Made by a program: the position numbers and the translations under genes
Source: Boletus sp. NGJ
Lineage: Eukaryota > Basidiomycota > Agaricomycetes > Boletales > Boletaceae
Direction: 5' to 3'
Assembly: GCA_019096195.1 (NCBI GenBank)
Contig: JAGTXK010000189.1
Coordinates: 62,001-126,000, forward strand
Length of the DNA: 64,000 nucleotides
Notes under the pieces: model-generated
What the model was told of the DNA's origin: nothing
The model's database searches: none
What the model saw: the letters and a program-made list of their open reading frames with translations, nothing else
Shown: positions 17,872 to 50,638 of the stretch, piece by piece
Numbering within the stretch: position 1 is the first letter of the stretch
Layout: every line of letters starts with the position of its first letter

Positions 17872-18186
17872 CGAACGTAAATTAAATGTTTTGTCGTCGT
17901 GCTGCGATGATGGGTGAACGCGAGGCTTTTTTCCACCTGGGCTCCATATGGCAACCTCCTCGACTCGACCCGAACTTCAACAGCTTTCCCCTGCTGAATT
18001 CAATCTAGGATCGGATTGTGAACAAACGGGTCGACAAACTCGCAGCCAGCGCAAGTTATCTGGGTTACACCAAAGACAACGACAATAAGCGGTCAACTCG
18101 CCGGCGGATACTGTGCGCACCGTGTGACGTGTGGTTCCAGTCTCAGACCAAGAGTGGGCTCATTGGCACTGACCTCCATCACGATC
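17872..18186. other. Divergent promoter region
   Basis: About 315 bp between two genes read in opposite directions. No gene is supported. Confidence 0.4.
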
Positions 18187-18794
18187 ATGGCCAACCCACG
18201 TCTGCGCGCACTCTCCAGACATACTCTCCGCCAGCTCAAGTTCATCATCCCTGGCGCCGCCGTCACATGTCTCCTCAACACTCATCGCATCCTCTTCGGC
18301 TTGCTATCCAAACCCAACGCTAGCCCAGGTGACTGGTCAAGGTAGATTACCTGCTCATACTTACCTGCTCCGGTTGACCGCGATTAGAACACTCGCACTC
18401 CTTGCATCATGTCTTGGTGGGCTTGTAGTCTTCCTGTTCCTCTATATTTTGCTCGTGCACTGGTTCCGAGGGGTTGAGCCCGATGTGAGTTTTCACAGTT
18501 ACCAGCCGTGTTCTCTCCTCAGACCCTTTCAAAGTACCGTTCATGGAGGCAGTCTGGCGTCCTTTCACGCGTACTTCCGACTCTGACTGCCGCCATCGTC
18601 GCTGGCTGGTCACTGCTTTCCATCACGCTCGGAAAATGGTCAAGTCTAGGATACTTGAAGGGCACCATCGGAGGTAATATCTACTGTGCTCTACTTTAAA
18701 ACATACACCGATTCCGAATTCAGCCTCTGGATTATATGCCCTCGTCTTTGGTTTGATGGGCTTGCTACCCGCCCCAATGATCCGTCGGTCATGA
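18187..18794 (+). CDS. Small multi-pass membrane protein, unknown function
   Basis: The ATG at 18187 begins MANPRLRALSRHTLRQLKF. Four exons joined by introns of about 40-55 nt give a protein of roughly 150 residues. It has three likely membrane helices: around IIPGAAVTCLLN, ALLASCLGGLVVFLFLYILL (18395-18455), and a C-terminal hydrophobic segment ending SGLYALVFGLMGLLPAPM (18722-18780). The stop is at 18792-18794. I do not recognise the family; an organelle or ER membrane location is likely from composition alone. Confidence 0.6.
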
Positions 18795-19420
18795 TCACAA
18801 TTTGTCTCGGACGTTGAACGGACCACTGTTATTTACGTGCTCACTCACGCTTCTCAAACGTCGACTCGGAATGCCAGCACAAGATTCTTCATGTTTTACC
18901 TGTATCTATTGCGTCTGTACGGCTGTTTTCTTGGTATTGTTCTGCGGTGTGAGACCAAGTTTAGCAATATTCTTTAGTAGTACCAACTTGAACCTACTAT
19001 CTTTCCCTGTGCTTTGGTATTAGTAGCTGGCATGTACCGAACACTTGTAAAAAACGAAAAAGGCCCTCTAGACACACCAACACCAATCACTCCGCCTGCG
19101 GCCGAACTCTATTTTCTCACTCTACGCCTTATCAGTCTACTTGTTGGAGTAAACAAATATAGGATTTCTCGCTCTCATTGAGGGATGTGCGTGTGGGTAG
19201 AGTACTTCAGATCAAGTCTTGGATGCACTCGCACAGGTTCCTTTGGCAATGCTCTTCACAAAATTGACGTTGGTAACTCACATCATGTTATCCAGATCAT
19301 TCACTCGCATAATTCTCCGTGAGACTGTTTCAAAGGCAGTTGTTGTTGTTCAAGTGACCTATCTCTCCTTCGACTCCGGTATGTGAGCGCTGAGGCCTGA
19401 GGGACGTACGTAGCTACATC
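18795..19420. other. Intergenic, no gene recognised
   Basis: No conserved motif was found. The right end borders, and may include, the lost first part of the decayed oxidoreductase gene. Confidence 0.4.
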
Positions 19421-20470
19421 ACTCCTGCTCAGATCTGCGAGGTAACAATGCGCGCCGGCGGGATAGGTATCGTGGAAGTATTTTCGCCAAAGGTGATACT
19501 GTGCCCGTTCGGGGCGATACTATATGAAAGACGCAGCACTCCAGGAAATAACGTGACTTCTCCGTAAATCTTGTGTCACTGGACCTTTTATTGAACGCCC
19601 TCGGCACACTTGGTACGATCTATCGTTAATAACGTGTTATGGTTGACTTGATTTATCAATGTCAGGCAATGACTGCCTACTTCGTGAGTGATGCAGCGAG
19701 TGTCGTTCATCTAGTTGGTGATCTGAAAGCTGGCGAGACTCTTTTGGTCTCTGTGATCTCTGATGGCAGGCGCTGCTGGATCCCTCGTCGGTCAACTTGG
19801 AAAACGTGCTGGCGCAAAGGTCGTGGCGCTTGCCGGGAGTGACGACAAATGTGCCTGGCGTGAGAACGAACTAGGCGTTGAAGTGACTTTGTGCTATAAG
19901 CGTGGCATGTTCCAAGAGGACTTTAAGAACGCTGTCAAGGTCTTCTTTGACAATGTCGGTGGACAGATTTTGGATGTGGCGTTGGATCGCTTGAACAGGA
20001 ATGCGAGGATAGTGTTGTGCGGTAGATACAGTTTTCTATGCGTAAGATCGGGATTTGCTGACTGTGTTACTATATCTGCTTGCAGTGCGTTGATCATGTT
20101 GACCTCACCCGGAAGGTGCACTTACTCGTCGTGTAGATTCACCAAAGCCTCGTGGGCTTGAAAAAATTGTTTGGCCTTGTCTTACAGCGAGAGGTTCTAT
20201 TGTCTGCGTTCCTTCGTTGTCCACAGCTCAATCTGTGCCACTCGCCGCCTTGCATAGTTTAGACCGCGTTTCGCAGTATCCTAAAGCAATTTCTGAGCTA
20301 ACTGTTGGCTGACGGTACGCTCAGACCAAAGCTCCATGTCGTCGATGGCTGAAAAATGCACCAAAGGCAAATATTACTGGTGTTGTTTTCCGGAGGTAAC
20401 ACATTCAATTTCTATACCCGAGATCCTTGAATCTACAATGCAGTTTGAACAGAGTTGCCCAAGTCTCAAT
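19421..20470 (+). pseudogene. Decayed zinc-independent MDR oxidoreductase (quinone/leukotriene-B4 dehydrogenase-like)
   Basis: Ordered fragments of an NADP-dependent medium-chain reductase are visible: MRAGGIGIVE (about 19448), RGSIFAKGDTV in another frame, ALGTLG joined by an intron to MTAYF (about 19670), and GDLKAGETLLVS (about 19720). The cofactor block AGAAGSLVGQLGKRAGAKV (about 19763-19820), VFFDNVGGQILDVALDRL (about 19940-20000) and, much eroded, WLADGTLRPKLHVVDG and VLFSGGN (about 20300-20400) follow. Frame changes occur before the cofactor block and near 20350, and the N-terminal catalytic domain is not intact. It is a host gene in decay. Confidence 0.75.
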
Positions 20471-20742
20471 AAATAGCAAATTAAACTGCCAAAGTTGTTT
20501 GGTTGTTCGGTTTTCGAAGTTTCCTGCCTAGGGTAATTCTAACCGATGACACGACGGGGATTCGACGACCTGGGATCGCTCCATGTCCCGAAACAAGCAA
20601 GAAACGTACTGTAAATAGTAGACGACGAAATCCATGCGATCCACGCTGAGGTCGTTCGCAAGTTGTACCCAGTTACCCTTTCCAATGAGAAGCAACATTT
20701 CCCTACGCGAGTTGTCCAATTTCCATCCGCTCACATCGACGA

Positions 20743-22297
20743 CTACACATTCCCATTTCGGGCGTTATCTGCCATCGTATTGACGAAGGGCTCCTTGTCG
20801 AGTGATCGATTGTGTGGTCTAATCGCCGAGAGATAGCCTGACGGGACAAGATCGTTGTCCTCGTGGTAAATCCTATGTGCGTCGAGGAATGCAACGTGCT
20901 GTGGGGTTAGGACTATCGAACCGACACGGATTCACGTCAACTTCTTGCTTGCACCTCTAGGTGAGAACCCCAAGTACGTACCCCGAGAACAAGAGCTAAG
21001 GAAAGTATCATAAACGAAGAATGCGAGGAGGGTGGCTGGGATGTTCGTGATTGCAGCTATCGCAGCGTATGGGCCACCTGCAGCTTGACGACCCCAGATT
21101 GTCATTGCCATCAAACGTCCGCCGACGTCACGAGCTGTGTTTGCGGCAACTGGAAGCAGTGGGCATATGATCAATAAGTGGGGTTCAATCGTGGAGAAGG
21201 CACGCACTTGAAGTTGGAGAAAATCCCCAAATGGCAACGCCACTGTGGTATGGGTCAGACGAACAGTTGATAAACAGATGACAAAGGGTTCGTACTATGT
21301 GAATCCAATGACCCATGGTGCCGCTGCTGGTGGTATCATGTGGTTAGTTGGATCGAGGCATGCGCTTATGGAAAGGCCAAGAACGAGGTCCTTTGCATAC
21401 TATATCAGACTAACTGCCGGGAGAAGAGCATGAAATACTCACAGTCATAAACTCGTTAAGGAGGACCCGGTTTAAATTAGTCCCAGGCGATACATAGAGC
21501 CCGAATATTCCTCCCGGGCCAGCAGGAGTGAACATCGTTGTGTTATAGAGGCCCTTTTCGACGAGGACGCCTTCCGCGACCTTGAGAAGGGTGAGTACTT
21601 TTCTCCCCGAGTCTGAAGCCGATCGAAAAAGAACATACCACGATCAGGTCATTCCACTGCACATATATAATAAGGCACGCCAAATAAGCGCCAAATATCT
21701 GTGCTAGTATGTACCTATATTCGATGTTAGCATTACCTGATGCACTGCGCTAAGTGCGGAAGACCATGCGATAAGAACGTACATGGCAGCTTTTCGCATG
21801 GAAAAACCTCTGAATAAGACGAATGAAACGGTTACACTGGGACTGAAGTGACCACCAGAAGCCGCCGCACAGATCGTGATTGCAAGCACGATTCCGATGG
21901 AATAAGCAACGCCGATGGTAAATAGAGCTAGACGTCAAGGTCAGGATCCAACATTACGCATCATCGAGATATAGACTGACAGCCGATTGGTTGAGATGTG
22001 AGATTTCCGACAATGAATGCAGCTGTGGATCCGACACCTGTGGGATAATGGATTTTCAGGGACTACACACTCCTCGGGACGAAGCTCAGCCAACCCGCGT
22101 AAACGTATAAAAACACACCAAGCTGTACGCAGCCAAACTGTCAGTTGTATCTGAGAGGGCATATCATAGGAATATAATACCATCTCGGCAACCATTTGAG
22201 TAAACATATGGATTCTGGCATGTTTGACCCTCTCCCAAGAAGTCATGTATCGTGGTCGGGGGGCAATATCGCGGAGGCGAACTGTTGGATAGGACAT
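20743..22297 (-). CDS. Aquaporin / aquaglyceroporin (MIP family), left copy
   Basis: A membrane channel for water or small solutes. It starts at 22297 (MSYPTVRLRDIAPRPRYMTSWERVKHA) and splices to LGVFLYVYAGVGSTAAFIVGNLTSQ, then LFTIGVAYSIGIVLAITICAAASGGHF, then an AQIFGAYLACLIIYVQW helix. The later part has a GVLVEKGLY...MFTPAGPGGIFGLYV loop, SACLDPTNHM, PPAAAPWVIGFT and ARDVGGRLMAMTIWG. It ends VLTPQHVAF...NARNGNV with a stop at 20743. Introns are 40-60 nt and the spliced frame seems open. The two pore boxes are unusual: SPS (21836-21844) in place of the first NPA and NTAR (21130-21141) in place of NPAR. Its partner is the inverted copy at 24372. Confidence 0.85.
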
Positions 22298-24371
22298 GGC
22301 AGTAGAGGGGATGAGGGACGAGGGAAGAATGTTGAGGTTCTACCGAACCCTTTAAAGTCTCTAACCCAGCAGAGTATGTCATCGAACATGACATAAAATT
22401 TATCCTGCTTGCATATACCGAAACGCGGTGCGAATCGCAACGCTCGTGACGTGGCAAATCCAAGGCCTGTTCCTGTTCTCAGCACTGGAATCACGAACCG
22501 CCGTTTTGATAACAGGGGACCCTATCAAGATCTGCCCGATCGACGAAATCCGGGGGCAAGTGTGCCTTTTTGTGTAGCTCCTTTAACGTGATTCGGATCC
22601 CAAAAGGCAGATTTGTTAATTATTGACTGCAGTGGCACGCGTGTGCATTAAGGGGTTAAGATGATTGACGTTGGATCTTGTGCTCCGCAGCATCGATAAC
22701 ATTTGGTGTAACGGGTCGGATATACGCAACGGAATCCGCTAATACCCTGTGGACGAAGGTCCCGCAGCTCGCCACAAACCGGTCCTGGCCGGAGCCGTCA
22801 GCTGCGAGGAAGCTCCTTGGATAGGCCACACACCGGTCTGGTGCTCTCCAGAGCACGCGGAACAAGTTGCTGCCAAACAGCCTAGGCGCTTGTTCAGTTG
22901 GAGGGTATTTGATTACTCCAACTTGAACCGATGGGACCTGACACGCGTTGAAACAAATGATTCGGGCGCGCGGCTTCCAACGCGGTGACCGTGCGTAGTT
23001 TATGCCACCCTAAATCCAATACAACGATCAATACCGGTTTCAGACTGTTATCCGGGTGTGTTCGAGGGAAGAGCTGGGATGCGGGGATAGCGCGTTGGCC
23101 GTACCTTCGTCAATTACCTTGTTAAATGTTTCCAGCCAGACATTACTTTGGGCGATACCGCTCTTTCTCGCGCTTGCATCAAACTCCGAAAGGCTCTTCA
23201 TGCCTATGCTAAACTCATACTGGGTGCGTGGGCATGATGAGCAGAGATACTGATGACACTAGAATAGCAACTCGCTGCGGATTCACGGGCCTAGTCGACA
23301 TTTCATATGAGGGGTTCTTGGACGAGACAGTTGCCACTGTTAATACAAGGCCCGCCAGGTTAACGAGTGTGGTCACGAGTGATGTTAAGTTCGTCGTGAA
23401 AACGTCGCAAGCAGCGTATTGTTAGTTATTTACAATATGAGTGGCTACCGGAGTCTGAACGGAACAGGTTCGTTATGTTCTTTCGTTCTTTCCACGGGGT
23501 GCACCCCTCATACACGCCTAGGAGAACGAGCAGTTTTGCTCGCTGAAAGTAACACCCGGCTGGAAACAAGGCAATTGACAAAGGCACGGCCGACACGCTG
23601 TCCTCGCGTTACAGTTCTGCCCAAACACCAATATAGGTTTGTCTATAGCCAGTAACCGTAGTCAAACACGCGGGACTCAGCGGCAGCACAAATAGCACAC
23701 AGTCACCCCGCAAGTCGCGGGTTCATCATTTGTTCAATGCAATCAGATTCCGATGAATCGGGGTATTCCAAGTACCCTCGACAGGCACCTACGCTGCTCA
23801 GTGACATATTCCAGTGAAATCGTGTGCTGGAGTGTATCAAACTGGTGTGTGGTCTATATGGAAGCTTCCTCGCAGGTAATGGTTTCCGCCAGAACGATGA
23901 CCGGGTTTGTGGCGAGCTGCGAGACCTTTGTCCAAGATATCACCAAATTCCGTTGCATATATCCAACTTGTTGTATTCTTCCAAAGTTTATCATTGGGGT
24001 ACTACACACCACGGGTGGCCTGGTGACCAGTTGGTCTGGTCACCAGGCCAGACCACGGGGTCCGTGCTTCCATGCATAATCTCAGGCCATTCTACCCCGA
24101 TTCTTAAAGGAGTGACGCCGAACCACGCTTTGCCCCTCGGAGTTCCTCAACTAGGTAAATGTGCATCGGGTGACTCTATTGACGGAGTGGCGTAGCCATA
24201 ATCCGGCAGTGAATAGAACAGGAATAGGAAGAGGCTTTTGATTCGCCACATTGCAAGCATTATGATTCGATGTTTACGACCGGGATCAAGTCCATGTCAC
24301 GTACGATGACATATTTTTAAAGGCTTGGTTTGGTGGAACCTCGACGTTCTTCCCTCATCCTCTTCGTTGCC
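22298..24371. other. Divergent intergenic region between the aquaporin copies
   Basis: Holds both promoters and the centre of the inverted duplication. Proximal parts of the two promoters match each other in inverted orientation (22300-22400 with 24370-24290, 22741-22860 with 23940-23821). The central 23000-23690 stretch is not shared. No other gene is supported. A 15-bp perfect hairpin lies at 24016-24050. Confidence 0.6.
24016..24050. repeat. Perfect 15-bp inverted repeat with 5-base loop
   Basis: The left half is tggcctggtgaccag (24016-24030), the loop is ttggt, and the right half ctggtcaccaggcca (24036-24050) is its exact reverse complement. It sits about 320 bp upstream of the right aquaporin start, in a part of that promoter with no clear equivalent in the left copy. 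Confidence 0.85.
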
Positions 24372-25934
24372 ATGTCCTACCCAACAGTTCGCCTCCGCGA
24401 TGTTGTCCCCCGACCACGATACATGACATCCTGGGAGAGGGTCAAGCACACAAAAATATATTTGTCTGCCGAAATGGTTGCCGAGACGGTATTGTATTTC
24501 TATGATGATATGCCCACTCAGGCGCAACTGACGACCTCACTGCGTACAGCTTGGTGTGTTTTTTTACGTTTACGCTGGTTGGCCGAGCTTCTTCACCCAA
24601 ACGAGTGTGTCATCCCTAAAAGTTCGTTATGCCACAGGTGTCGGATCCACAGCTGCTTTCGTTGTCGGAAATCTTACGTCTCAACCACTGGGCTGTCAGT
24701 CTACGTCTCGATAGTGTATGATGTTGGTCCTGACCTTGATATCTAGCTCTATTCACCGTGGGCACTGCTTATTCCATCGGAGTCATGCTTGCAATCGCGG
24801 TCTGTGCGACGACCTCTGGTGGTCACTTCAATCCTGGTGTCACTATATCATTTGTAACATTCAGAGGGTTTCCTATGCGAAAAGCCGCCGCGTACGTTCT
24901 TCTCGTATGGTCTCATGCGCTTGACGCAGCGCCTCAGGTAATTCTAAATTGAATGTAGGTACATATTAGCACAGATACTTGGTGCCTATTTGGCGTGCCT
25001 TTTCGTATATGTGCAGTGGAGAGACCAGATTGTGGTATGTTTTTTTCTGGATCGACTTCAGAGAGAAGAAGACTCAGCGTGCTTAAGGTCGCGGAAGGTC
25101 TGCTCGTTGAGAAAGGCCTCTATGACACATTGATGTTCACTCCTGATGGTCCGGGAGGCATATTTGCGCTCTATGTATTGCCCGGGACAAACTTACACCG
25201 AGTCCTCCTTAATGAGTTTATGGTTGTGAGCATTTTATATTCTTTCCCCAGCAGTCACTCTGACATCGTACGTAAAGGACTTTGTTATTGGCCTTTCCAT
25301 AAGCGCATCCATTGATCCAACCAACCACATGGTACCACCAGCAGCGGCACCATGGGTCATTGGATTCACATAGTACGAACATTTTGTAATCTGTCTATCA
25401 TCTGTTTGTCTGACCCATACCCCAAGTGGTATGGCCATTTGGGGATTTTCTACAACTTCACGTACGCGTCTTCTCCACGATTGAACCTCACTTGTTGATC
25501 ATCCATTGCTTCTAGTCGCTGCAAACGCGGCTCGTGACGTCGGCGCGCGTATGATGACAATGACAATCTGGGGTCGTCAAGCTGCAGGTGGCCCATACGC
25601 TGCGATAGCCGCACTCACGAGCATCCCGGCCACAGTCTTTGCATTCTTCTTTTATGATACTTTCCTCAGCTCTAGCTCTCGAAGTATGTACATTGAGTTC
25701 TCACCTGGTGGTGCGAGCAAGAAGCTGATGTGGGTCTGCGTCGGTCCAACAGTCCTAACCCCATCGCACATTGCGTCCCTCAGTGCTCATAGGATATACT
25801 ACGAGGACAGCGGTCTTGTCCCGTCAGGCTATCTCTCTGCGCTTCAGTCATACCAGAATACGACCCCTTCGAGATCATTCGACGGAAAGGCTGTTGACAA
25901 TACTTTGATGGAGGTCGTTGCCAAAAACGTCTAG
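24372..25934 (+). CDS. Aquaporin / aquaglyceroporin (MIP family), right copy
   Basis: Inverted paralogue of the gene at 20743-22297. It begins MSYPTVRLRDVVPRPRYMTSWERVKHT at 24372 and keeps the same intron positions. Spliced segments are LGVFFYVYAGVGSTAAFVVGNLTSQ, LFTVGTAYSIGVMLAIAVCATTSGGHF, AQILGAYLACLFVYVQW, MFTPDGPGGIFALYV, SASIDPTNHMVPPAAAPWVIG and ARDVGARMMTMTIWGRQ. A longer tail ends DNTLMEVVAKNV at 25934. The first pore box is NPG (24830-24838) and the second is NAAR (25524-25535), different from the left copy. All blocks are present, so it is probably functional, although some exon borders (25200-25500) are uncertain. Confidence 0.83.
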
Positions 25935-26839
25935 TGGTCAATCTCAAAGATGGTAGTAGATGGAAAGCTGATAACTCGCGATACGAAAGTGTCACTTCCA
26001 TCGGAAAGGGTAGCTGGTGTAACATACGAACCACCTTAGTCTGAACCACATGGATGTCGTGGTCGACTATGTACAGTACATTTCTTTCTCGTTCCAGGGC
26101 GTGTAACAAAAACCCAGTTGTCAGAATTCTGTTGTATAGTATACTTGCCCTGCTAGCGGACTCAGAAGATCAAGTTGAATGTGAGGCTCAAAGTGTTTTG
26201 TGGTGCATCAACAGTGGCTAGAGCCTAGAATCCTATAAGGATCTAAAGATGATAAGAGAATGCAGTCAAACTTAAACTCCCAACCAATTGTCAACATCTC
26301 AAGGGTTAAGTCATACAAGGAATGGTTACCAGGACAACCAGTTATTAAACCACTGTAGTAGATGTCACTGATCATGGTTTTAAAGGACAAATAGTCAATT
26401 TTATTACAGATTCCTAGCTGAAGGGATAACAATCAGAATTCCTTGTCCATTGGAGATGAACACCGGGCATGGGAACCTGAGAGCAACTTATCTCATGCAA
26501 AGGATGATACTCATGACTTCTATTAATTTTTTGTCGCAGCCCACCGTTGTCTGTGACTTGGTAGAAACATCTCATTGTACATGATATGGCCTTGGTCCTG
26601 GACACATTTACCAACTTATGTGAATCACATTGACACTGCTTATAACACGGCAAATTTGAAGCCTGTTCAATGATGTTCTCTTCACTCCGAGATGACATTA
26701 GTCTTTTAACAAAGAAAGTCAACGATTGAAGAATTCCAGGGATACCAAGATGAGGTGAAAATTGTGGTCCTGTGCGAGTGTGTGCATGAAGGGGTCCAGT
26801 TCATTGACATGCTATGATCCATGGAAGCACTGAGTCCTG

Positions 26840-26905
26840 TGGTCCGCGCTATCTGTGGACAAAGGTCTCGCAGCTCACCACATATCCAGTGTGGTGTTTG
26901 AGGGG
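26840..26905 (-). repeat. Third copy of the aquaporin-upstream segment
   Basis: The stretch tgtggacaaaggtctcgcag followed by ctcaccaca matches the left arm around 22748-22778 in the same orientation, and the right arm around 23910-23940 in inverted orientation. It lies outside the two arms and suggests a small dispersed repeat or an older duplication step. Confidence 0.6.
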
Positions 26906-27439
26906 ATGCGAAGTCAGCCATGCCTTCGATGCCTCGTCAAAGCTTTCTAGCCGGGCGGTACTTTTACAACTGGCAGTTAAAGGGAGGAATACGAGGTGTT
27001 TCGTCGTGAAGGCGTGCCACTGCCAATGAATGTAGAGGCAATGGAAGCCACGACACGCGCTGGGACCCCTGTGACCACATTCAAACTCCGGGGTGGTACG
27101 GTGTCGTCCTGGACAAGGACGAGGACGAGCGGCGGGGGGGATGGACTGGAATGGGGGACGTACTTACTGGTCACGGATCTGCGGAGATGTTGCTCGGGAT
27201 CGTCGTGGACGTTTGGGCCGCACTGAGGGCGAGGGGAGTGGTCTTTGGGGTCCTTGGATGAAAGCAGTGTCAAGTTCCCGCGGGTTGGCTTGGAGTTGTA
27301 TTGGGCTTCGAGGCCTTCGTAGTGAGCGACTCTTCGACTTGACTCTCCAGTCAACCGCCCGCACGAAACATAAAATTGTTTCCCTTCATCTTCTCCTCGC
27401 CAGCTTGCAAGGGCTTGTTTTTTTTTTCTTTCCCTTACA

Positions 27440-27585
27440 GGCAAAATCCGCGAGTCTACCTTGATTCTTCTCCAAGCGGTCTTTAGTCGCGTCGTACTTA
27501 CTATCTCTCGTCATTTCTGCTGTCTTTTGCTCTTTTCCCTCCTATCTTCTCTCCTTGATTTTTCTTTACTTCCTATTTCTTCACA
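27440..27585 (+). promoter_or_regulatory. Pyrimidine-rich leader of the Pbp1/ataxin-2 gene
   Basis: Long runs of T and C (such as ctgtcttttgctcttttccc and ctttacttcctatttcttc) directly precede the ATG at 27586. Such CT-rich leaders often mark transcription start regions of well expressed fungal genes. Composition is the only evidence. Confidence 0.4.
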
Positions 27586-30500
27586 ATGGCAACCACTTCC
27601 CGTTCAAAGCAACCCAGGAAGGGTATGGCAGACCCCACTACCCGGTATGTCTACACCACATCGTTGCCACATATGTCCTGGTTCATCATCCTTACTCCTT
27701 CCCTTTCCCCCGATGTAGTCGTCCAGCATGGTCAGCCGCAAGAGCTTCCCCCACGTTTTCTCCAGCGAACACCCCATCTCGTCTTCCCAATGGTCCTTCC
27801 GCTCCTCCTCAGGGGAGTTTCCCCCCACTACCCGCTCACGCCAATGGCACTCGTTCTCAGGATGCGCCTCAAGATCGCTTCCTCCAGTCTCTAGCTGGTC
27901 TGACTGTGCGTCTTACATATCCGATTACCTCCCGTGTCTACATCTTCCGTCCCATACTAGGGTACAACTGTCACCTTGTCGACAAAAACTGGTCAGCGTT
28001 ACGAGGGCGTCATTTCGTCCACTACTCCTGACGGCGACATGGCTGGTGTGACTCTGAAGGACGTCAAGGAGATCTCGAAACCGGGCACTCCTCTTAAAGA
28101 TACTCTCTTCATCCCCTCCACCAACATCGAGGGTTGGTCGTCCGGGCCAGCTGATGCTAAAGTGTCCAATGGTGACAGTAAGTCCTCAAACGCAAATCCA
28201 CCCGACGCTATTGCGTCGACATTGAATCGCTTTGCGTCTTTCCTCTACTCCTTGTTCTAACTTGATTTCGGTACTGATGTGGCAATTTTCCGTGATAGCA
28301 TTTCGGACGGATACTGATATCAGCAAGGGAAAGATTTCACGAGAGCGCGAGTTGCAGGCGTGGCAATCCTCAGATTCACCGGCGTCATCTGGTGCACCTG
28401 CTCCCCACCACGACGGGGCCGGAGATGAAATTACATTCGGGCCTGGGGCAGTCAATAACACCTTGTGGGACCAATTTGCCGCCAACGAACAGATGTTTGG
28501 TGTCACGACATCGTTCGATGAGGAGGTTTACACGACCAAACTTGATAGGTCTGCGATAGACTTCAAAGAGAGGGAACGAAAGGCAGTGCGCATTGCTAGT
28601 GAGATCTTGGGGGTATGTCCTCTAGCACGACGGTGCTCTGCTGAATATTAAAGGACATGCTCATAAATTCGACAGAGTACCACCAACAATCCACATACAG
28701 CAGAGGAGAGAAATCTGAACCTCGATGACAGTGGCGTAAACGAAGAAGACAAGTGAACCTTTCTATTTTCGCCTTACTTGCACGTCCTTACGGCGCAGCA
28801 TAGATATGGCGCGGTGGTTCGTGGTTCAAATGCATATATTCCCCCCGGTGCACGCAAACATCAACTGCAGCAGCAGCAACAGCCTGGTTCTGCTGGAGCT
28901 TCAGCCATCAACAGTCCACCGTCGAAAACCGACATTCAAGTTTCTGTCAATGGCCCTAACGGAACAGCGGGTCCTCCAAAAGAGGTGCCTCCAACTGCCA
29001 AATCGACCTCTCCAGCACCGTCGACGTCGTCAGTGAACAAGGTATGTAGTTATATGTACTCCTAGAGGATCGAGCATCGGATCAGCTTCTTATTGATCAT
29101 CATGGTTTTCATCGGTGTCTTTATAGCCGCCAGCGGATCCTCTCCCAGCGTTCCGTGACTTTGTGACCAACGAGAGGCAACGCTTGACCCAGAAGAAGCA
29201 GGCACTAGTCAAAAGTGAGATGGACAAGCGCAAGGCTGAGCTACTCAAGTTCTCCCAGACATTCAAGGTCAGTGACCCATCCACATATTCTCTAATACCT
29301 ATAATTCACACGACATGCGCAGCTTAACAAACCCATTCCTGACGATTTGGTACCAATCCTGGCGAAGGACGAAGAAAAGCAGCGGCTGATTCGTGAAAAA
29401 GCCACTCAGGATGCAACCTCGGCTTCAGCTCGTACGATTGGTGCCGTAGGAACACTCAACCCATCTCCAAGTGCTTCGCGTGTACCACAAATACCTGCCT
29501 CTACCAAGGTTGCACCTGATGCGGCGCGGAAACCTATTTCGGTTGCTACTGCCTCAGCAAAGCTACCTGCCCCGACTTCATCAGCGTCCACATCCAAAGT
29601 AGCTGCCAAAGCATCGGAGCCTGGCAAGACAAACGGCAAACCAACGATCAACATGTACATTCAACCCATACCCCCTTACAAAGGGAGTAAGACGAAGTCA
29701 CCTAGCCCACAAACAAACGGAAGCTCCTCAACTACTACAGTGCCGACCTCGCCGACCTCGACAAACCGGCTAAATGCAAACGCGTCATCCTTCCGGCCAA
29801 ATCCAAAAGCAAGTGCCTTTACTCCTGTAATATCGAACGCACTGTTTATCCCTCACATCGTAATACTGACGTTGAGGTGTCTTGTTTGCTCTATGTAGGG
29901 TCCTACTTCACCTATTCCCAGCACTGCCTCTGCCTCTGCCTCGGCATCACCACATGTCAAGCCAGCTGAAACGGTGAGGTTGATAACCCGATGATAGCGT
30001 ATCGCTCAATGTGGCTGTAGACCCCTCCTACCCCCAATCCCTTTTTTGGTACAAAGGTCGTCAAGAAGGCTATGGTCCATGTCAAGGATGATTTCAATCC
30101 TTTCAAACACAACAAGGTTGCTGAAGCTAGCAATATCAGTATGAGATATTTCATACCTCTCTCTACACTATGGCTTACTTGTTTCAGCTGCGATGTGGCC
30201 GTATAATGGCAAAAGATATACAAACATGTTCCCTCCCCTGCCTCAGCAACCACAGCAACCTACTCACATGGCGCCACCCGGTCCGCCACCCGTCACCCAT
30301 CACCCATATGAAGAGGGCGAACAACGTTTTATTTACGTTCCTTACTACCACGGACAGGTAAGAGATTGTGATCTTTGACCCATTACGGAAACCGACCTCT
30401 GGTCACAGCCTATCATGCCAGGCATGGCCCCTCCGCCACCCGGTGCCTTCGTGTCGGCGCCTTTCATGCAGCCAATGCCTTATCCCCCTGCCATACCACC

Positions 30501-30952
30501 AAACGCACAGCGTGAGTTGTTGTCGATCTACTGTTGAGCGATAACCAACCTATCGGCCAGCTATGTACGCCGCGTCGCCAATGCCACAAATGCCACGTGC
30601 GTCTTGCGTTATGTCGAACGTTACGAACTTATCGTTGACTGTTTTCTTACTCTAGCACCACAATACATGCCACCACCCCCTGGCACGTACCCACCTCCGC
30701 CAAATGGCGCAGGTCCCCGTCCTTCCATGCCGCCGACCCCTACCCCCATGCACGCACACCCATACTACCACCAGAGCCCACAATGTTTGTCTTGATTTCA
30801 ACTCAATTAGCTCTGGTGACTGAAGCCGCTTTGTAGTACAACACGCCGTTCCGTACCCGATGATGATGCCACCGGGAGGCCTCAACGGGCCTCCCCACGC
30901 GTACGAGACAGGTCCAGCCCCGCCACCGATGGGCGGTGTGGGTCACACATAA
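27586..30952 (+). CDS. PBP1: Ataxin-2 / Pbp1 homologue (Lsm-like + LsmAD domains, PAM2 motif)
   Basis: A cytoplasmic RNA-binding protein that joins poly(A)-binding protein and stress granules. After MATTSRSKQPRKG and a Pro/Ser-rich exon comes the Lsm-like part (GTTVTLSTKTGQRYEGVISS, about 27962-28025, and GVTLKDVKEI). The LsmAD domain follows (MFGVTTSFDEEVYTTKLDRS, about 28494-28552, then FKERERKAVRIASEILG). A coiled segment (KKQALVKSEMDKRKAELLKF, about 29190-29250) precedes a Ser/Thr/Pro-rich stretch. LNANASSFRP (about 29770-29799) fits the PAM2 consensus for binding the poly(A)-binding protein MLLE domain, and NPKASAFTP follows at once as a second, partial match. The tail is Pro/Met-rich. 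The stop is at 30950-30952. About ten introns are present and the call is strong. Confidence 0.9.
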
Positions 30953-32001
30953 CATGGCCCTGCTGCATCATTCTTTCACTTTTTTCCCCCTCATCGTGCT
31001 ATTTGTTGTTGTGAGGTCAAGAGCGATCGAGCCAGTCTTTGTTGTACGTGACATGTCCAAGGTCGAGGAAGGCACATCCAGGGCCTTTTAGTACTGTAAC
31101 TACGATACTCTGCTGGCATAAACTGCTTTGGATACAGGATTGTGAGCTCGTGAATTCACAGAACAAGTTGAGTGTGCAGATCATCAGTCATTCAATCACA
31201 ACGATCACGAAAACGTCGGCCAGCCTGTCATGGTCTGTGCGCATATCGCGAAACGTATATATACCCTCGCTGGACAAGGAGAATGCTTACCACTCTGGCC
31301 TTTTGGCTTAGATCAAGTGTAGTATCTGTTCTTAATAGTTTAACCACTATTATGGGGGCACCGCCCTCATTCTTTGATTATCAAAATTTTGCCGCCCTTG
31401 TTCTCCGTGAGCTCGGCTTGCACCTCTGGGGACGTGATGACCCTGCCACTGCACTGCCGGCTCGTGTCGTCGGGGGGTCTCCCTCGCTTTTGTTTTTTCT
31501 TTGCTGTCTCCCTCCCAAGTGTCAATCGGCACTTTGCTCGGGATCAACAAACAGAACTCAATGTGTATACAAACTTGTGATGTGGCTGTCTACACACTTC
31601 CATTGCTATGTACTTACAGTAAGCTTCTGTCAGTTTGGAAGAGCATTTCATTTCGATCGATAGCCTACAGTACTGTAGTACGTATGAATAGTGTTGTTTG
31701 GTTTCACAGCTTGAAGGAGCTGGTGTACGCCTAGCATCTGCTGTAAAGCAGTGTAATACATGAAACCCACCATGAAACCACCGATAACGTTGGTATCAAT
31801 TACAGGTATCTCCGACGCCACAGTTCGGGGAAATTTTTCTTACAGGCGTTGCACTGGTTTCAACTTTCGTTATCGTTTGCCGACCCATACAACCGCTCAA
31901 ATTTGCAAAGAAAGGAAAATGAGTCCGAAAAGTAGCTCCTTCAAGTTCCATCATATAAAGTTCAGCCCCTTGTTCGTTTCTTGATCTTCACCTTCCCATC
32001 T
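30953..32001. other. Intergenic, no gene recognised
   Basis: About 1 kb without motif-bearing frames. It includes the Pbp1 3' flank and the promoter of the dehydrogenase gene starting at 32002. Confidence 0.45.
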
Positions 32002-50250: not shown

Positions 50251-50395
50251 TGCCATGAAACGTCTCCAACTTGAAGCACAGCTTCATCCAGTATCCATGT
50301 GCTGACCCGGCAATATTTTTCTGGTAACCTTTTGGAGCTGCCCAGATATATAACCCACCCGCGTCCCGTCCCCGGACCAGTGCTTCAGCTTTTAA
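50251..50395 (+). repeat. Direct repeat, copy 1
   Basis: A 145-bp unit beginning tgccatgaaacgtctc and ending cagtgcttcagcttttaa, repeated downstream at 50486-50638 with small differences. Shared cores include cttttggagctgcccagata and atccagtatccatgtgctg. It lies upstream of the eqolisin-like gene. Confidence 0.88.
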
Positions 50396-50485
50396 GCCTC
50401 TCCACTGAATGGTTCAGATATGATTTATTATTATATAGATGCCGACACGCAGGAACTTGCAACTTGAAACTCAACAGTGGCACCA

Positions 50486-50638
50486 TGCCATGAAACGTCT
50501 CTTGGAAAGCACGGCTACATCCAGTATCCATGTGCTGGCCCGGCGATGTTTGCAGTATTTTTCTGGTAGCCTTTTGGAGCTGCCCAGATAGTAACCCACC
50601 CGCATAGCCCGTCCCCAGACCAGTGCTTCAGCTTTTAA
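50486..50638 (+). repeat. Direct repeat, copy 2
   Basis: A 153-bp second copy of the unit at 50251-50395. It keeps the same ends and order of motifs and differs by a few substitutions and short insertions (for example around gatgtttgcag). The copies are 90 bp apart. No terminal inverted repeats are seen, so this looks like a segmental tandem duplication. Confidence 0.88.

Follow-up and report, generated by a model that had tools for sequence, protein, structure and literature searches.

How did two aquaporin genes of Boletus sp. NGJ come to lie head to head as inverted copies of each other, and have both been retained as genes? We analyzed the 64-kb stretch of DNA that carries them (hereafter the window), which is part of a 261.6-kb contig (C58) in an assembly of 32.8 Mb and 141 contigs. 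An earlier note made from the sequence had described a diverged palindrome at this place, in which exons, intron positions, upstream regions and 3′ flanks match as inverted copies. Alignment of all these parts confirmed that description, and the locus is mostly an ordinary inverted gene duplication, whose arms show a hint of having exchanged sequence at a later time. The features discussed below are collected in Table 1.

Table 1. Features of the inverted duplication, in positions of the window.
Feature	Position	Strand	Basis or content
Left arm	20536..23172	-	Single reverse diagonal with 23523-26145
Right arm	23523..26145	+	Single reverse diagonal with left arm
Central spacer, ~350 bp	23173..23522	.	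Arm-to-arm similarity not detected
Gene A, aquaglyceroporin-type MIP, 10 exons, 342 aa, NPA boxes SPS + NTA	20743..22297	-	Gene model, PF00230, PDB match
Gene A, exons	22297-22181, 22122-22095, 22037-21981, 21927-21783, 21714-21639, 21580-21443, 21390-21296, 21242-21208, 21149-20982, 20912-20743	-	
Gene B, aquaglyceroporin-type MIP, 10 exons, 346 aa, NPA boxes NPG + NAA	24372..25934	+	Gene model, PF00230, PDB match
Gene B, exons	24372-24488, 24550-24577, 24638-24694, 24747-24891, 24959-25034, 25088-25225, 25278-25372, 25427-25461, 25516-25683, 25753-25934	+	
Low-divergence tract, candidate gene conversion (arm A, end of intron 6 to mid exon 9)	21061..21394	.	Silent divergence and permutation
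Partner of the tract in arm B	25274-25604	.	Global alignment
5′ region beside start codon of gene A	22298..22396	-	79% to B copy; 16 transitions, 1 transversion
Upstream block of gene A, 73%	22739..22907	-	Holds 27-bp element 22750-22776
Matching upstream block of gene B	23773..23943	+	Holds element 23908-23934
Third copy of upstream element, arm-A orientation, beyond 3′ end of arm B	26850..26890	+	Blastn and pattern search

Extent of the inverted duplication

Global alignment recovered the reversed similarity as a single diagonal, the check that had been proposed for the palindrome, with 20536-23172 pairing with 26145-23523 in arms of about 2.6 kb. The dominant inverted match (blastn of 18001-29000 against the window) joins 20592-22405 to 26093-24283 over 1850 columns at 79.1% (E 0.0), and two inner blocks detected by blastn are collinear with it, namely 22715-22857/23967-23821 (76%, E 1.7e-20) and 23066-23155/23622-23540 (72%, E 1.8e-7). 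Among the 13 inverted repeats listed by a repeat finder for the 64-kb window, 10 (I1-I8, I11, and I12) lie on the palindrome diagonal; I9 reflects a third occurrence of the upstream element (see below), and the short pairs I10 and I13 lie in other parts of the window. DNA searches of the assembly with each arm found this locus only and no other close copy of either arm.

The reverse diagonal crosses introns and flanks and reaches beyond coding similarity. Identity between the two genes is 82.9% in exons (851/1026 ungapped columns) and 79.0% in introns (407/515). Approximately 1.1 kb of upstream DNA is also similar between the arms in a patchy manner, the blocks ranging from 48 to 79% (79% beside the start codon, then 61, 48, 73, 65, and 59% going inward), and the 200 bp of 3′ flank reach 68 and 64%. 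Chance or coding-only similarity is ruled out because introns, upstream blocks and the 3′ flank align too; similarity confined to coding exons was the outcome that the earlier note had itself set against its reading. Its non-matching center was also recovered, with a size of about 350 bp instead of 700 bp, as the arms reach 23.17 and 23.52 kb. The innermost 175 bp of arm A share 35% identity with their partner, a level close to the 39% of the region beyond the arms. In the assembly, the palindrome is real and somewhat more extensive than previously described.

Inverted repeats can mislead assemblers, and this one was examined in the assembled sequence. Nevertheless, an assembly artefact or a misjoin of dikaryon alleles is extremely unlikely. 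About one-fifth of the positions differ between the arms, which is more than expected of a single-locus artefact, and the contig continues for approximately 82 kb on the left side and 173 kb on the right side. An allelic misjoin is disfavored because the outer flanks are unrelated (19000-20535 versus 26146-27600, best E 0.27), whereas alleles should share their flanks.

Several other elements were annotated in the window. Beside the left arm, 19763-20161 (+) matches part of a dehydrogenase of the zinc-binding kind (ADH_zinc_N, 39.8 bits), either an intron-bearing gene or a remnant, and an Ataxin-2-like gene is located to the right of the palindrome at 27976-28651 (+), with SM-ATX at 25.5 bits (below the cut-off of 29.8) and LsmAD at 51.5 bits (above its cut-off). 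A U2 spliceosomal RNA gene at 31287-31479 (+) is the sole Rfam match (106.6 bits). The tandem-repeat scan identified one array (30725-30765), and a direct repeat of about 120 bp is present at 50274-50638 in two copies that lie 233-243 bp apart and are 89-97% alike in blocks. The tRNA scan returned no genes, and the tRNA, tandem-repeat and Rfam scans found nothing inside the arms.

Gene models, channel type and constraint

We have written complete 10-exon predicted models for both genes, in keeping with the earlier description of two full-length, translatable genes reading apart. All nine introns of each gene (52-69 bases) are of the GT-AG type and occupy the same positions in A and B, and the frames are complete. 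Such short spliceosomal introns, the U2 RNA and the size of the genome are in keeping with a fungus. Exons 1-9 are of equal lengths in the two genes (859 bp), and exon 10 differs in frame, with 170 bp in A and 182 bp in B. The splice sites of these predictions were picked by eye from reading frame, consensus and family conservation. The proteins are 75.4% identical at aligned positions, and the two gaps in their alignment (5 and 1 residues) both fall in the tail encoded by exon 10.

Both proteins match the Pfam MIP family (PF00230) above its curated cut-off of 25 bits, with 99.6 bits for A and 101.8 bits for B. The best PDB match of each is aquaporin-3 (E 2.1e-19 for A and 2.5e-19 for B), with other glycerol channels ranking next. 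Against NCBIfam, each protein had four matches, none of which reached its cut-off. Each protein carries two NPA-like boxes as read from the gene models. Ser replaces Asn in the first box of A, and the second box has no proline in either protein (NTA in A, NAA in B) and is followed by RDVGGR in A and RDVGAR in B, that is, by RDxGxR without proline. Filter residues were counted by hand on aquaporin-3 alignments at what we take to be the filter positions of aquaporin-3 and GlpF. This placed Y at TM2 and R at LE2 in both proteins and I (A) or L (B) at LE1. The TM5 position falls in an alignment gap, which leaves two candidate residues in each protein (V or A in A, M or A in B).

In its treatment of fungal delta aquaglyceroporins, PMC4236510 (Verma et al., 2014) gives their filter as F/Y/M at TM2, V/I/A at TM5, I/L/V at LE1 and R at LE2, and its section 10 describes Ser or His at the first-box Asn in some members. 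Shared with the delta cluster as characterized there are the second box without proline, RDxGxR, the Ser that replaces the first-box Asn of A, and three of the four filter residues (Tyr at TM2, Ile/Leu at LE1, and Arg at LE2); TM5 cannot be safely placed, and the likeness is one of motifs. Judged from their predicted sequences, A and B fit most of the published marks of this group, which accounts for their odd NPA boxes, and the most likely reading is that they form membrane channels of the fungal delta aquaglyceroporin type, with six putative helices, through which small uncharged solutes would pass.

Other MIP genes in the assembly are located on C13 (two) and C81 (one), giving a count of at least five, a lower bound set by the family search. 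This is near the average of 4.4 MIP genes per fungal genome (range 1-20) stated in PMC12300952. The C13 genes form a pair in direct order (matches at C13 27501-28392 and 31979-32508, within C13:24000-33990) with second boxes of the NPARDLGPR type, and their tblastn pieces share 24-48% identity with the pair in the window.

The two coding sequences have diverged at dS 0.372 and dN 0.142 (NG86), with a dN/dS of 0.381 (bootstrap 0.283-0.519), or 0.339 over the first 290 aligned codons, which leaves out the tail. By codons, dS is 0.28 (1-100), 0.49 (101-200), 0.23 (201-285), and 0.67 (rest), and conservation is poor over the final 56 aligned codons (dS 0.67, dN 0.33). Seven indel events were counted in the introns (515 aligned bases) versus none in the 859 bases of exons 1-9, where about 12 would be expected at the intron rate. 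When substitutions were placed at random at 12%, the frame of A stayed stop-free in 6% of 2000 trials and that of B in 4% of another 2000. A dN/dS of 0.38 alone would allow weak constraint on one copy, but the ratio, the lack of coding indels and the random-substitution run together argue that both copies have been kept. The maintained paralogue pair proposed in the earlier note is thus supported as far as sequence constraint goes, with indels confined to introns outside exon 10.

Could only one of the genes be functional, the other being a young pseudogene or a non-conducting channel? The Ser in the first NPA box of A and the moderate dN/dS would suit this explanation. We consider it quite improbable, as A has no stop, frameshift or lost GT-AG, and a Ser or His at that very position is reported in the section of PMC4236510 cited above for some delta aquaglyceroporins. 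Moreover, a neutral copy should by now have acquired about 6 coding indels, if the 7 events in 515 intron bp are split evenly between the two lineages and scaled to the 859 bp of exons 1-9.

Upstream DNA and the low-divergence tract

Genes A and B each have their own diverged copy of the upstream DNA; a duplicated regulatory region shared by the pair, as conjectured in the earlier note, goes beyond this finding. A third copy of an element from the 73% block (Table 1) matches the B upstream block at 88% over 41 bp and the A upstream block at 90% over 30 bases (26853-26882). A 27-bp pattern built from the three copies, searched with up to 3 mismatches, occurs at three sites in the whole assembly, all of them here, and its reversed control occurs at none. 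Weak collinear pieces at 26780-26808 (E 0.006, versus arm A) and 26814-26844 (E 0.07, versus arm B) hint at a relic longer than 41 bp in the region 26780-26890. The third copy may represent the remains of a further copy of the upstream region, which suggests a more complex history. No sign of another gene beyond the right arm came from a tblastn search of the arm-masked window with both proteins: nothing was listed in the right flank at E values of 5 or less, and the best match in the rest of the window has E 0.027.

A mobile element was considered as the source of the upstream blocks and rejected. The 211-bp block matches only itself and its partner, and 26700-27000 matches only itself; no dispersed repeat was found because these sequences and the 27-bp pattern are confined to this locus, in searches that are weak for short pieces (very common words are skipped, and the run with 26700-27000 missed the known 41-bp matches).

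The upstream blocks also bear on whether the inverted structure itself has been selected, for example, as a cruciform controlling both genes, as PMC1803023 proposes in its discussion of nematode inverted gene pairs. The inverted order has persisted through sequence divergence and the paralogues flank the center, which speaks for such a role. Selection for pairing, however, should keep the inner arms similar, and here the center and much of the upstream DNA can no longer pair (35% in the center, 48-73% in upstream blocks past the start-codon block), so we regard this explanation as very unlikely.

Divergence between the arms is uneven at silent sites. In total, 149 of 675 silent sites differ (241 coding and 434 intron sites compared), and a scan over lengths of 20-295 sites picked out one tract with 14/145 differences (9.7%) versus 135/530 (25.5%) outside it. 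The limits of the tract were set by the scan itself, which the permutation allows for: a tract as extreme arose in 0 of 500 unstratified permutations and in 42 of 5000 stratified by site class (p about 0.008). All three classes contribute, with 0/16 two-fold sites differing inside versus 14/70 outside, 3/39 versus 31/116 four-fold sites, and 11/90 versus 90/344 intron sites. No further low tract (p 0.49) or high tract (p 0.44) was detected in the remainder with 1000 permutations each. Runs of identical silent sites reach 22 sites at most, a length in line with the permutations (p 0.44), and the scan of tract divergence is the one test that stands out. Exact-match runs between the arms include 52 bp (21056-21107) and 48 bp (21288-21335).

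Gene conversion from arm to arm is probably the simplest reading of this tract from the silent-site pattern, and local constraint or a low mutation rate could produce a similar one. The shift from less than 1 in 500 to about 0.008 after stratification counts against conversion and weakens the case. Still, the tract suggests that the arms have exchanged sequence at least once besides drifting, a point that the earlier note did not foresee. Repeat-induced point mutation was also tried as a cause of the divergence. C/T differences occur at 49/276 sites before G (17.8%), 31/266 before A, 23/276 before C, and 28/244 before T; since this excess before G is only mild in an unpolarized comparison, there is no strong signature of that process.

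Origin of the pair and comparison with known systems

We propose that an ancestral aquaglyceroporin gene, together with about 1.1 kb of upstream and 0.2 kb of downstream DNA, was copied once in inverted orientation beside itself, which would have produced two divergently read genes around a short center. Silent-site divergence between the arms would then have reached about 25% beyond the tract, with both coding sequences and all splice sites preserved by selection, and an internal stretch of about 330 bp was probably homogenized later by arm-to-arm gene conversion. The ancestral upstream region would persist beside each gene as a separate copy. Selectivity may have been divided between the two channels through their differing NPA boxes. 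We assign a probability of roughly 0.8 to this explanation as a whole, that is, inverted duplication followed by drift under selection and conversion of one tract, leaving two delta-type channels.

A direct tandem duplication with later inversion of one unit would leave an end sequence identical in look, and the same genome does contain the direct-order MIP pair on C13. We consider this route unlikely, as it needs two events with inversion breakpoints near the ends of the duplicated unit, and the similarity reaches inward to about 175 bp from the center on each side. It is similarly doubtful that the locus is an aging palindrome whose arms still exchange sequence, in which conversion would renew the loop E pore region (exons 7-9) as the rest drifts, A, with its first-box Ser, would have taken on a different solute, and 26850-26890 would be the trace of an earlier third copy or of a duplication of the palindrome at this locus.

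The persistence of the structure proposed here, an inverted duplication with diverged arms, is unremarkable given a 350-bp spacer and about 20% divergence, because the work on double-stranded DNA covered in PMC10164571 and PMC1803023 describes both spacer length and arm divergence as reducing inverted-repeat instability. The earlier suggestion that spacer or drift stabilized the palindrome agrees with that literature but sits less well with another result in PMC10164571, according to which repeats diverged by up to 25% with 30-kb spacers still rearrange in long single-stranded DNA; since comparable divergence is tolerated there, the locus need not be fully safe. Survival of the palindrome needs no special mechanism, yet it is not explained by the present data.

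Although knowledge of palindromes or aquaporins is unchanged by this locus, it offers a clean inverted gene duplication: both genes seem to survive, and the arms have largely escaped homogenization. Two questions could be approached with it, namely at what degree of arm divergence conversion in a palindrome ceases and whether duplicated delta aquaglyceroporins share out their work through atypical NPA boxes. We found no report of an inverted fungal aquaporin pair in the open-access literature searched; in PMC8546338, the term "divergently transcribed" is applied to mating-type genes. Inverted paralogue pairs as such are already known from the account in PMC1803023, and the low-divergence tract is what is new here.

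The closest counterparts are the Caenorhabditis inverted repeats with divergent or convergent paralogue pairs presented in PMC1803023, which, like the present locus, hold divergent paralogues in an inverted duplication that includes intergenic DNA. At the F44E5.4 locus, as described in that article, the spacer is 126 bp versus about 350 bp here, both being short, but the worm arms are 99.7% identical, whereas identity between the Boletus arms is about 80% in the genes, and no more than one homogenized tract was detected. Palindromes of sex chromosomes, in willow (PMC7023750) and on the human Y as cited in PMC1803023, also bear genes and undergo arm-to-arm gene conversion, as proposed for the tract described above. 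Nothing noted at the Boletus locus points to a sex or mating-type region, and in contrast to the arms studied here, those of the sex-chromosome palindromes are kept highly alike.
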